Of a stretch of 64,000 nt of DNA, positions 26,112 to 49,552 are shown piece by piece; position 1 is the stretch's first letter; every line of letters starts with the position of its first letter. The DNA is from Halorubrum salsamenti (lineage in GTDB: Archaea; Halobacteriota; Halobacteria; Halobacteriales; Haloferacaceae), in NCBI RefSeq assembly GCF_007671685.1, contig NZ_VCNL01000003.1, forward strand, positions 124,001 through 188,000. Reading direction: 5' to 3'. The notes below the pieces were generated by a model that saw only the letters and a list, made by a program, of their open reading frames with translations, did not search any database and was not told where the DNA came from. The translations under genes and the position numbers were made by a program.

Positions 26112-27092
26112 ATGGAGTGTGACAGGTGCGGAGACGACGCGATCCACCACGCCGCCTACTCCGGGGCGCACCTCTGTGGCGACCACCTCCGCCGGTCGGT
26201 CGAGAAGCGCGTGAAACGCCGCGTCCGCGAGGACAGCCTCCTCGACCCGGACGCGACGCCGGACGACCCCGACCGCTGGGTGATCGGCCTCTCGGGCGGG
26301 AAAGACAGCGTCGCGCTGACGCAGATCTTAGACGACGTGTTCGGAAAGGACCCGCGCGTCGAGATGCTCGCGCTAACGATCCACGAGGGGATCGAGGGGT
26401 ACCGCGACGAGAGCATCGACGCCACGATCGAGCTCGCCGAGGACCTCTCGCTCCGCCACGAGGTCGTCTCCTACGAGGAGGAGTTCGACGTGCAGATGGA
26501 CGACGTAGTCGAGAGCGACCCGGAGAACATGGCCGCCTGCGCGTACTGCGGCGTGTTCCGGCGCGACCTCTTGGAGAAGTACGCCGCCGAGTTCGACGCC
26601 GACAAGCTGCTCACCGGCCACAACCTCGACGACGAGGCCCAGACGGCGATGATGAACTTCCTGGAGGGCGACGTGCGGCAGGTGGCGAAACACTTCGACG
26701 CCTCGCTCGGCCCCTTCGACGAGCGGGAGGGAACCGACGCGTTCGTCCCGCGCGCCAAGCCGCTGCGGGACGTGCCCGAGAAGGAGATCGCCCTCTACTG
26801 TCACGTCCGCGACCTCCCGACCCACATGGCGGAGTGTCCGCACTCCTCGGAGGCCTACCGCGGCGAGATCCAGTCGACGATCCACGAGCTGGAGGAGAAC
26901 CACCCCGGCGCCCGCCACTCGATCATGGCCGGCTACGAGGAGCTGTCCGCGCTCGCCGCCGAGGCGTACCGCGAGGGCGGCGACGCCGCCGCCGACTCGC
27001 CCGACCTCGGCGAGTGCGATCGCTGCGGCTCGAAGACGAGCCGCGACGTCTGCCGGAAGTGTCGGCTACTCGACTCGATCGAGGCGGCGTAA
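26112..27092 (+). CDS. ncsA: tRNA 2-thiolation enzyme NcsA
   Basis: This 326-residue enzyme belongs to the TtuA/Ctu1 family. An N-terminal zinc ribbon begins ECDRCGDDAIHHA. The PP-loop SGGKDS (about 61-66) activates tRNA with ATP, and catalytic cysteines lie in ACAYCGVFRR (about 140-145) and CPHSSEAYRG. A C-terminal zinc ribbon, CDRCGSKTSRDVCRKC, follows. In haloarchaea NcsA thiolates wobble uridine of tRNA(Lys) using sulfur carried by SAMP2, whose gene is also in this window at 48798. Two copies of CACAGAGACGCGTTC around 26025-26065 lie upstream. Confidence 0.88.
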   Translation: MECDRCGDDAIHHAAYSGAHLCGDHLRRSVEKRVKRRVREDSLLDPDATPDDPDRWVIGLSGGKDSVALTQILDDVFGKDPRVEMLALTIHEGIEGYRDESIDATIELAEDLSLRHEVVSYEEEFDVQMDDVVESDPENMAACAYCGVFRRDLLEKYAAEFDADKLLTGHNLDDEAQTAMMNFLEGDVRQVAKHFDASLGPFDEREGTDAFVPRAKPLRDVPEKEIALYCHVRDLPTHMAECPHSSEAYRGEIQSTIHELEENHPGARHSIMAGYEELSALAAEAYREGGDAAADSPDLGECDRCGSKTSRDVCRKCRLLDSIEAA

Positions 27093-47302: not shown

Positions 47303-48790
47303 ATGAGCACTCAGGCCGCGACGGAGGAGCGGACGGTCGTGATCGGGCTGGAGGTCCACGTCCAGCTCGAGACCGACACGAAGATCTTCTGCGGCTGCTC
47401 GACGGAGCCCGCCGACGAGGAGGAGCCGAACACGCGCACGTGCCCGACCTGCCTCGGACTGCCGGGCGCGCTGCCGGTCCTCAACGAGGGCGCCGTCGAG
47501 GCCGCCGTGAAGATCGGCAAGGCGATCGACGCCGACATCCCCGAGACGACCACGTTCCACCGGAAGAACTACTACTACCCCGACCTGCCGAAGAACTTCC
47601 AGCTCACCCAGTACGACGCCCCGATCTGCCAGTCCGGGGAGCTGGAGGTCCGCGTCGACGACGAGACCCGGACCATCGGGATCACCCGCGCGCACCTCGA
47701 AGAGGACCCCGGCAGTCTCCAACACGCCGGCGGGTCCATCGAGTCGGCGACGCACACCCTCGTGAACTACAACCGCGCCGGGACGCCCCTGATGGAGATC
47801 GTCACCGAGCCGGACTTCCGGTCGCCGGCGGAGACCCGGGCGTTCCTCGCGAAACTGGAGGAGGTCCTCGAATACCTCGGCGTCTTCGACCCGACCCGCG
47901 ACGGGAGTCTGCGCGTCGACGCCAACGTCTCGCTGGTCCCCGAAAGCGAGGTCGGCGACGACGGGGCGATCACGGAAGACGCGCTCGCCGACGTGAACCG
48001 CGCCGAGGTGAAGAACATCTCCAGTCACAAGGGCGCCGAGCAGGCGCTCGCGTACGAGGTCACCCGGCAGGAGAACGTGCTCCGGCGCGGCCGCGAGATC
48101 GAACAGGAGACCCGCCACTGGGACGAGGCGCGCGGCGTCACCGTCTCGATGCGCTCGAAGGAGGCCGAGAAGGACTACCGCTACTTCCGGGAGGCCGACC
48201 TCCCGGCGCTGGAGGTGTCGGACTGGAAAGAGCAGATCCCGATCCCGGAGCTGCCCGACGCCCGCCGCGAGCGCTTCCGCGAGGAGTACGGGCTCGACCG
48301 CGAGTCGGCCTCGAAGCTCACCTCCACGAAGGCCGTCGCCGACTTCTTCGAGGACGTGGCCGAGCAGTTCGACCCCGAACTCGCCGCGACGTGGGTCGCC
48401 GACAACCTGCTCGGCGAGCTCAACTACCGCGAGATGCAGATCACGGACGTGGAGGACCGCCTCGACGAGTTCAAGCGCCTCATCGAACTCGTCGCCGCCG
48501 AGGAGCTCACCGTCAAGAACGCCGAGGAGGTCGTCCTCCGCGAGATGCTCGACGAGGGCGAGGACCCCGAGACCGTCATCGAGCGCGAGGGGCTCGGCGT
48601 GGCCGACTCCGGCGAGGTCGAGGCCGCCGTCACGGCCGCCATCGACGACAACCCGGACGCGGTCGACGACTACCGCGACGGCGACGAGGGGGCGATCAAC
48701 TTCCTCGTCGGACAGGTGATGCAGGAGACGGGCGGCAGCGCCGACCCCGGCCAGGTGAACGGGCTGCTCCGCGAGGAGCTGGACGGATAA
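47303..48790 (+). CDS. gatB: Asp-tRNA(Asn)/Glu-tRNA(Gln) amidotransferase subunit B
   Basis: This 495-residue GatB has GLEVHVQLETDTKIFCGCS with the zinc-type cysteine cluster (C...CTCLGLPG), the kinase-like core FHRKNYYYPDLPKNFQLTQYD and GGSIESATHTLVNYNRAGTPLMEIVTEPD. The C-terminal helical and tail domains (YqeY-like) end NGLLREELDG. GatCAB converts misacylated Asp-tRNA(Asn), and in archaea mainly this rather than Gln, to the amidated form. gatA and gatC are not in the window. SAMP2 follows after seven bases and GNAT overlaps, so the three share a transcript. Confidence 0.94.
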   Translation: MSTQAATEERTVVIGLEVHVQLETDTKIFCGCSTEPADEEEPNTRTCPTCLGLPGALPVLNEGAVEAAVKIGKAIDADIPETTTFHRKNYYYPDLPKNFQLTQYDAPICQSGELEVRVDDETRTIGITRAHLEEDPGSLQHAGGSIESATHTLVNYNRAGTPLMEIVTEPDFRSPAETRAFLAKLEEVLEYLGVFDPTRDGSLRVDANVSLVPESEVGDDGAITEDALADVNRAEVKNISSHKGAEQALAYEVTRQENVLRRGREIEQETRHWDEARGVTVSMRSKEAEKDYRYFREADLPALEVSDWKEQIPIPELPDARRERFREEYGLDRESASKLTSTKAVADFFEDVAEQFDPELAATWVADNLLGELNYREMQITDVEDRLDEFKRLIELVAAEELTVKNAEEVVLREMLDEGEDPETVIEREGLGVADSGEVEAAVTAAIDDNPDAVDDYRDGDEGAINFLVGQVMQETGGSADPGQVNGLLREELDG

Positions 48791-48797
48791 GTCCGCG

Positions 48798-49016
48798 ATG
48801 CGTGTTTCCGTCGAGGTCGTCGGCGAGGGGACGGCGGAGTACGACCTCTCCGACGACGCCACCTACGCCGACCTCATTCGCGAGGCCGGCTACCACCCGC
48901 AGGAGGCGTCGGCGCTGGTCGACGGTTCGCCGGTCCCCGGCGACCGCGTCGTCGACGCCGAGTCGGTGAAGCTGCTCCGGCTTATAAAGGGCGGATCGAC
49001 GGACACCACCGCGTGA
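48798..49016 (+). CDS. samp2: Ubiquitin-like small archaeal modifier protein SAMP2, C-terminally extended
   Basis: This 72-residue beta-grasp protein has MRVSVEVVGEGTAEYDL, TYADLIREAG, ALVDGSPVP and VKLLRLIKGG. The pattern closely follows Haloferax SAMP2, including Lys58, the chain-linking lysine in that protein. In known SAMP2 the terminal Gly-Gly is the last residue and is adenylated by UbaA for conjugation and for tRNA thiolation with NcsA. Here the Gly65-Gly66 is followed by STDTTA. Its stop overlaps the GTG of the next gene (GTGA). Unless the tail is trimmed, activation should not occur. Confidence 0.85.
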   Translation: MRVSVEVVGEGTAEYDLSDDATYADLIREAGYHPQEASALVDGSPVPGDRVVDAESVKLLRLIKGGSTDTTA

Positions 49017-49552
49017 GCGGGGAGCGATCCGCCGGCGACCCGCCCGAGAACGTCGCGATCGAGACGGCCTCGCCGGACGACCGGCTCGATATGCTCCGCG
49101 TGCTCGACGCCGCCATGCTGGAGACGGATCCCGAAGTCGTCGACGCCGCGGTCGACGCCGGGGACGCCCTGGTCGCCCGGTTTAAAAAGACGGACACGGT
49201 CGTCGGCGCGCTGGTCGCGACGCGACCCGAGTCGGACCGGCTCCACGTCGACGCCGTGGCCGTCCGGCGGGCCCGTCGCGGACGAGGGACAGGCTCCGCG
49301 CTCGTCGCCGCGATAGTCCGACGCGCCGAGCGCGACGCCGACGTCGCGGTCGTCACCGCGGCGTTCGACGCGAAGCTGAAGGAGTTCTACCGAAACCTCG
49401 GATTCGCGGTCCGACCGGCCGAACGCGCGGGCGAGTTCCGAGGCTCCGACGCGACCGGAGCCCCCAGCACGGACCGCGTCCCGGAGGGCGACCCGGACCG
49501 CCTCTGGGGGCGGGCCGCGGTGGACAGTGCGGCGGAAGGGACGTCGCCGTGA
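49013..49552 (+). CDS. GNAT family N-acetyltransferase
   Basis: This 179-residue protein has the GNAT acetyl-CoA loop RRARRGRGTGSALVAAIVRRA (the Q/RxxGxG/A motif as RGRGTG) near residue 90. Strand LHVDAVAVRR precedes it, and the C-terminal FYRNLGFAVRPAE motif closes the domain. The substrate is unknown. The gene starts with GTG inside the SAMP2 stop codon, so it is translationally coupled to SAMP2 and in the gatB operon. N-terminal or lysine acetylation of proteins is one possibility. Confidence 0.8.
   Translation: MSGERSAGDPPENVAIETASPDDRLDMLRVLDAAMLETDPEVVDAAVDAGDALVARFKKTDTVVGALVATRPESDRLHVDAVAVRRARRGRGTGSALVAAIVRRAERDADVAVVTAAFDAKLKEFYRNLGFAVRPAERAGEFRGSDATGAPSTDRVPEGDPDRLWGRAAVDSAAEGTSP

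Follow-up and report, generated by a model that had tools for sequence, protein, structure and literature searches.

Ubiquitin and SUMO in eukaryotes undergo an obligate C-terminal maturation before E1 activation, and the ribosomal protein partners of ubiquitin are freed by the same cut. In the Haloferax volcanii model, SAMPs are described as being made in their final, Gly-Gly-ended form, and JAMM1 is described as a deconjugase. HvJAMM1 also cuts a linear SAMP1-MoaE fusion precisely after the Gly-Gly, releasing working products in vivo (PMC4443979), and natural MoaD-MoaE fusions are known (PMC11237513). In Caldiarchaeum, CsJAMM cleaves SAMP precursors, and CsRpn11 is sensitive to the residue directly after the Gly-Gly, with Gly there speeding cleavage and Glu blocking it (PMC6043591). 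Here we describe a SAMP2 of Halorubrum salsamenti that continues past its Gly-Gly, together with its relatives across the Halobacteriales.

A SAMP2 with six residues beyond Gly-Gly

The window, a 64,000-nucleotide stretch of the H. salsamenti genome, codes for a SAMP2 (Table 1) matching the equivalog model NF041919 (100.6 bits, cut-off 70) and PF21965 (96.7 bits, cut-off 27). Its AlphaFold model (pLDDT 86.8) is a confident beta-grasp over residues 1 to 64, with 2L32, 4HRS, and ubiquitins as the best PDB matches; residues 65 to 72 are unstructured, and the Gly-Gly junction lacks structure in both predicted models. H. volcanii SAMP2 (HVO_0202; PDB 2L32 and 4HRS, both also matched by sequence) is of the same family, with the same beta-grasp fold and the same Gly-Gly end to the domain, but it stops there, whereas the window protein, MRVSVEVVGEGTAEYDLSDDATYADLIREAGYHPQEASALVDGSPVPGDRVVDAESVKLLRLIKGG-STDTTA, ends LRLIKGG-STDTTA and thus has six further residues, predicted to need removal. 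Translation bears out the sequence-only reading on this point. A terminal Gly-Gly in the translated product is no part of the SAMP2 profile, and because 118 of 249 family members share a tail, we regard it as a variant inside the family and not as grounds for exclusion.

Table 1. Features of the samp2 locus and of ncsA in the window
Feature	Position	Strand	Basis and remarks
samp2	48798..49016	+	72-aa precursor, span includes the stop; NF041919 and PF21965 above cut-off, PDB 2L32/4HRS
Gly65-Gly66 codons	48990..48995	+	Translation; expected cleavage site directly 3' of 48995
Six-codon C-terminal extension STDTTA	48996..49013	+	Translation; every genus member has a homologous, variable tail; disordered in model
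GTGA overlap, samp2 stop/GNAT start	49013..49016	+	Sequence and ORF list
GNAT acetyltransferase gene	49013..49552	+	PF00583, 39.6 bits
495-aa ORF, gatB-like by inspection	47303..48790	+	ORF list; name has no profile basis
ncsA, tRNA 2-thiolation protein	26112..27092	+	NF047749, 603 bits (cut-off 500)

The samp2 stop is a TGA at 49014 to 49016, and the GNAT gene starts with GTG at 49013, giving a four-base overlap. Just the final base of the tail lies inside it. The earlier proposal that the extension is created within this overlap is therefore not upheld; we also rejected the overlap itself as the source of the tail, since relatives that stop at Gly-Gly overlap the next gene too (GGATGA), which makes the tail an insertion ahead of the overlap. 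The gatB-like ORF ends 7 bp upstream of samp2, and the two likely share one operon. As the sequence-only reading had it, the window has an intact gene for NcsA, the protein expected to use SAMP2, and the E1 enzyme UbaA is encoded in the genome (NF047750 above cut-off).

A second SAMP2 ending in Gly-Gly could have made the tailed copy dispensable, but a genome-wide search of this 99.96% complete assembly found no second SAMP2. The other Ubls found in the genome are either tailed (VSGG-AVGR in SAMP1, VAGG-GGT in a SAMP3-like protein, and SGG-R in a MoaD-like one) or end in Cys-Cys. The label SAMP3-like follows the C-terminus that we take H. volcanii SAMP3 to have, and both this protein and SAMP1 fall under the NCBIfam SAMP1 model. 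The Cys-Cys-ended protein (G000:C12:592285-592557, L076) is a beta-grasp Ubl that finishes in FMFCC without an extension, resembling the Cys-Cys type of end noted for arCOG00539 (PMC2948915).

Tails throughout the genus

Residues beyond Gly-Gly are present in every SAMP2 of the genus (49 of 49 genes from 52 genomes, the named records being almost all Halorubrum), including those in assemblies of one to three contigs. Forty-seven of these tails are 2 to 25 residues long, and all but one of the 47 end in GTGA; the remaining two genes (G029 and G033) are in-frame fusions to GNAT. The stop is thus displaced past Gly-Gly throughout the genus and the extension is genuine. High-GC genomes have few chance stops, and a lost stop easily lengthens a frame. 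Yet independent assemblies show a tail in each of the 49 genus members and, order-wide, in 118 of 249 genes, and we therefore dismiss with near certainty both a fault in assembly or base calling and a meaningless species-specific loss of the stop codon.

Beyond the P1' position the tails are only 48% identical, compared with 86% for the domains (144 pairs). Their lengths cluster at 5n+1 residues (6, 11, 16, and 21; 26 of 47), and several of the longer ones contain 15-nt tandem repeats, as in G048, where GCGACGGACGGCGAC occurs twice and the autocorrelation at 15 nt is 1.0; tails therefore seem to lengthen through in-frame duplications placed after the Gly-Gly codons and before the gene overlap. 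The glycine itself is kept, while all four synonymous codons are used for Gly66 across the 49 members.

The other SAMPs of these relatives show similar ends. Among 30 Halorubrum-type genomes, 27 have an extended SAMP1, and the SAMP3-like protein is extended at all 30 loci examined in relatives, three of them fusions to the next gene. These three (L206, L214, and L230) run in frame into the downstream gene, adding 109 to 130 residues; most SAMP3-like tails are one to three residues long and end in an ATGA overlap.

Tails and fusions across the Halobacteriales

We extended the comparison to 249 SAMP2 genes from 58 genera of the Halobacteriales, of which 131 stop right at the Gly-Gly and the other 118 run on past it, several by only one to three residues. 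The Gly-Gly is kept in all 249, whether terminal or internal. Tailed SAMP2 proteins occur in 22 of the 58 genera, and a Halorubrum-only oddity was accordingly rejected; exact and extended forms coexist in nine genera, which indicates that the position of the stop is evolutionarily labile.

Long fusions to GNAT or redoxin domains make up 26 of the 118 extended genes. SAMP2-GNAT fusions are found in all 10 members of a Haloplanus-like genus and in two Halorubrum-genus genomes (L125, L129, and L153 to L162), and the two GNAT parts that were profile-tested both match GNAT domains. Fusions are also found in four further genera (g15, g17, g28, and g38), where one member each of g17 and g38 has a fused part that matches AhpC/TSA redoxins by profile, and the fusions of g15 and g28 are placed in the same type by visible similarity only. 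These redoxin-like fusions (L150, L148, L086, and L258) span two families and echo the Ubl-peroxiredoxin gene association reported in Thermococcales (PMC2948915).

Of 104 distinct tails, 88 open with Ser, Ala, Thr, or Gly and none with Pro, and Ala, Ser, or Gly is the majority first residue in 15 of the 22 genera. These preferences are in line with the steric limits at P1' measured for CsRpn11.

JAMM proteases and the distribution of tails

The sequence-only reading had suggested looking for a JAMM-type protease able to trim the tail, and the genome codes for two JAMM proteins. One is JAMM1, the orthologue of HvJAMM1 (G000:C1:415812-416237), which scores 155 bits against the desampylase model NF041370 (cut-off 130), carries the EXnHSHX7SXXD motif, and aligns to Pyrococcus furiosus JAMM1. 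The genes for the MoaD-like Ubl, UbaA, and JAMM1 are clustered within about 2 kb (G000:C1, ∼414.3 to 416.2 kb; L077 and L079), and two or three JAMM1 paralogues are present in the relatives G043, G045, G025, G028, and G020. The second JAMM protein is AfJAMM-like, of the group that includes HvJAMM2. We rejected the JAMM2 type as the discriminating protease; its genes are nearly universal whereas JAMM1 is missing from several genera, and the AfJAMM/JAMM2-type group is reported to be inactive alone (PMC4895103), leaving the active desampylase as the factor that distinguishes the genomes.

JAMM1 is absent from 34 of the 131 genomes with an exact Gly-Gly SAMP2 but from only one of the 118 with an extended form (Fisher p = 9e-10, a value inflated by shared ancestry), absence being called from searches of draft genomes, with protein searches inside the family and bimodal PF14464 scores outside it (64 to 89 versus 25 to 50 bits). 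Counted by genus, JAMM1 is absent from 11 of 36 exact and 0 of 22 extended genera (p = 0.004; family-stratified p = 0.011), and these values, computed from counts of genera, are the ones to weigh; the association is phylogenetically clustered, with 11 genera lacking JAMM1. The sole extended genome without JAMM1, G129, has an assembly of just 79% completeness and is only a possible exception. In each of the 13 JAMM1-less genomes in which SAMP1 was read, it too has nothing after its Gly-Gly. Many JAMM1-positive genomes also have exact SAMP2 ends, which an optional tail would lead one to expect, but JAMM1 thus does not predict tails. Across genomes, this pattern points to JAMM1 as the probable cutter. 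We note in addition that, of the 13 JAMM1-less genomes examined in the family, none has a clear SAMP3-like orthologue (best E value weaker than 1e-15), suggesting that JAMM1 and SAMP3 were lost together.

A proposed maturation pathway and its alternatives

The original interpretation offered two options, trimming by a protease or loss of the stop codon, and both hold in part: the stop does lie past Gly-Gly genus-wide, and the comparative data favor proteolytic maturation, with a Gly-Gly that is invariant though internal and tails essentially confined to JAMM1 genomes. Since E1 enzymes use a C-terminal glycine, an internal Gly-Gly needs a cut. We consider it quite likely, on these comparative grounds, that SAMP2 is a precursor with a disposable tail that JAMM1 matures for UbaA activation by cutting after Gly66; the cleavage, its site, and the identity of the enzyme are what we infer from the patterns above. 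SAMP2 would be translated as pro-SAMP2, its C-terminal tail unstructured; JAMM1, the JAMM/MPN+ desampylase, would cut the peptide bond after Gly66, and UbaA would adenylate the freed Gly-Gly end, which would then serve sampylation and, by way of NcsA, tRNA thiolation. Lying between the Gly-Gly codons and the GTGA overlap by which samp2 would be coupled to the GNAT gene, the tail is probably near neutral and would lengthen by duplication of 15-nt units. Because JAMM1 would strip whatever follows the Gly-Gly, stop codons could be lost and downstream GNAT or redoxin genes fused.

The best surviving alternative, which we nonetheless hold to be improbable, is that another enzyme matures the precursor, either a carboxypeptidase-type exopeptidase or an unrelated endoprotease, with JAMM1 acting only on conjugates. 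The tail is unstructured in the model and often short (two to six residues), and an exopeptidase might remove the several extensions of one to three residues, but it could not work its way back through the folded GNAT and redoxin domains of the long fusions. Moreover, tails are virtually absent where JAMM1 is absent, and the specificity reported for JAMM1 is the right one (PMC4443979).

It is much less plausible still that SAMP2 goes unprocessed and that its E1-dependent functions were lost in this lineage, with SAMP1 or SAMP3 giving the sulfur for tRNA thiolation. An unprocessed SAMP2 would indeed be inert, as E1 acts on the C-terminal glycine, but the invariance of Gly-Gly in all 49 genus members in the face of synonymous turnover at the Gly66 codon argues for retained function, as do the intact NcsA and UbaA, and SAMP1 and SAMP3, being extended in this genome too, would need processing as well.

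A broader reading has about an even chance of being correct: that throughout the Halobacteriales JAMM1 is both the SAMP-precursor maturation protease and the desampylase, and that where it is present the stop after Gly-Gly is dispensable. SAMP tails would then evolve again and again, as would natural fusions of SAMP2 to GNAT or redoxin that are split after synthesis like ubiquitin-ribosomal protein fusions; the supply of modifier would be tied to that of the fused enzyme, and JAMM1 could not be lost once a SAMP is extended. Should SAMP precursors be common among haloarchaea, JAMM1 would stand upstream of tRNA thiolation, molybdopterin synthesis, and protein tagging, and could be essential to them. 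SAMP maturation would become genetically testable in cultivable archaea, and SAMP constructs and annotations from tailed genera must allow for the tail. The haloarchaea would also show, in natural replicates, how Ubl precursors and Ubl-enzyme fusions arise once a processing protease exists, a step seen also in the history of ubiquitin.

Comparison with known systems

We found no report of tailed haloarchaeal SAMPs in the open-access literature, which does not prove their absence from it. The C-terminal maturation proposed for SAMP2 resembles that of eukaryotic ubiquitin and SUMO, but their precursors are processed by cysteine DUBs and SENPs instead of a JAMM protease, and we know of no processing enzyme common to the two. 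SAMP and CsJAMM, and CsUb and CsRpn11, of Caldiarchaeum subterraneum (PMC6043591) are closer, in that an archaeal Ubl likewise has residues past its Gly-Gly, in that case trimmed by JAMM. That system belongs to another phylum and its cleavage was measured in vitro, whereas cleavage of haloarchaeal SAMP1, SAMP2, and SAMP3 is our interpretation of repeat-grown, labile tails and enzyme fusions. The SAMP1-MoaE (PMC4443979) and MoaD-MoaE (PMC11237513) fusions share with the SAMP2 fusions the order of a Ubl followed by a second domain, but the SAMP1-MoaE substrate of HvJAMM1 was engineered, whereas the haloarchaeal SAMP2-GNAT and SAMP2-redoxin fusions are natural. Caldiarchaeum SAMP precursors and SAMP1-MoaE fusions are thus JAMM substrates already known, of which the tailed haloarchaeal SAMPs would be a variant.
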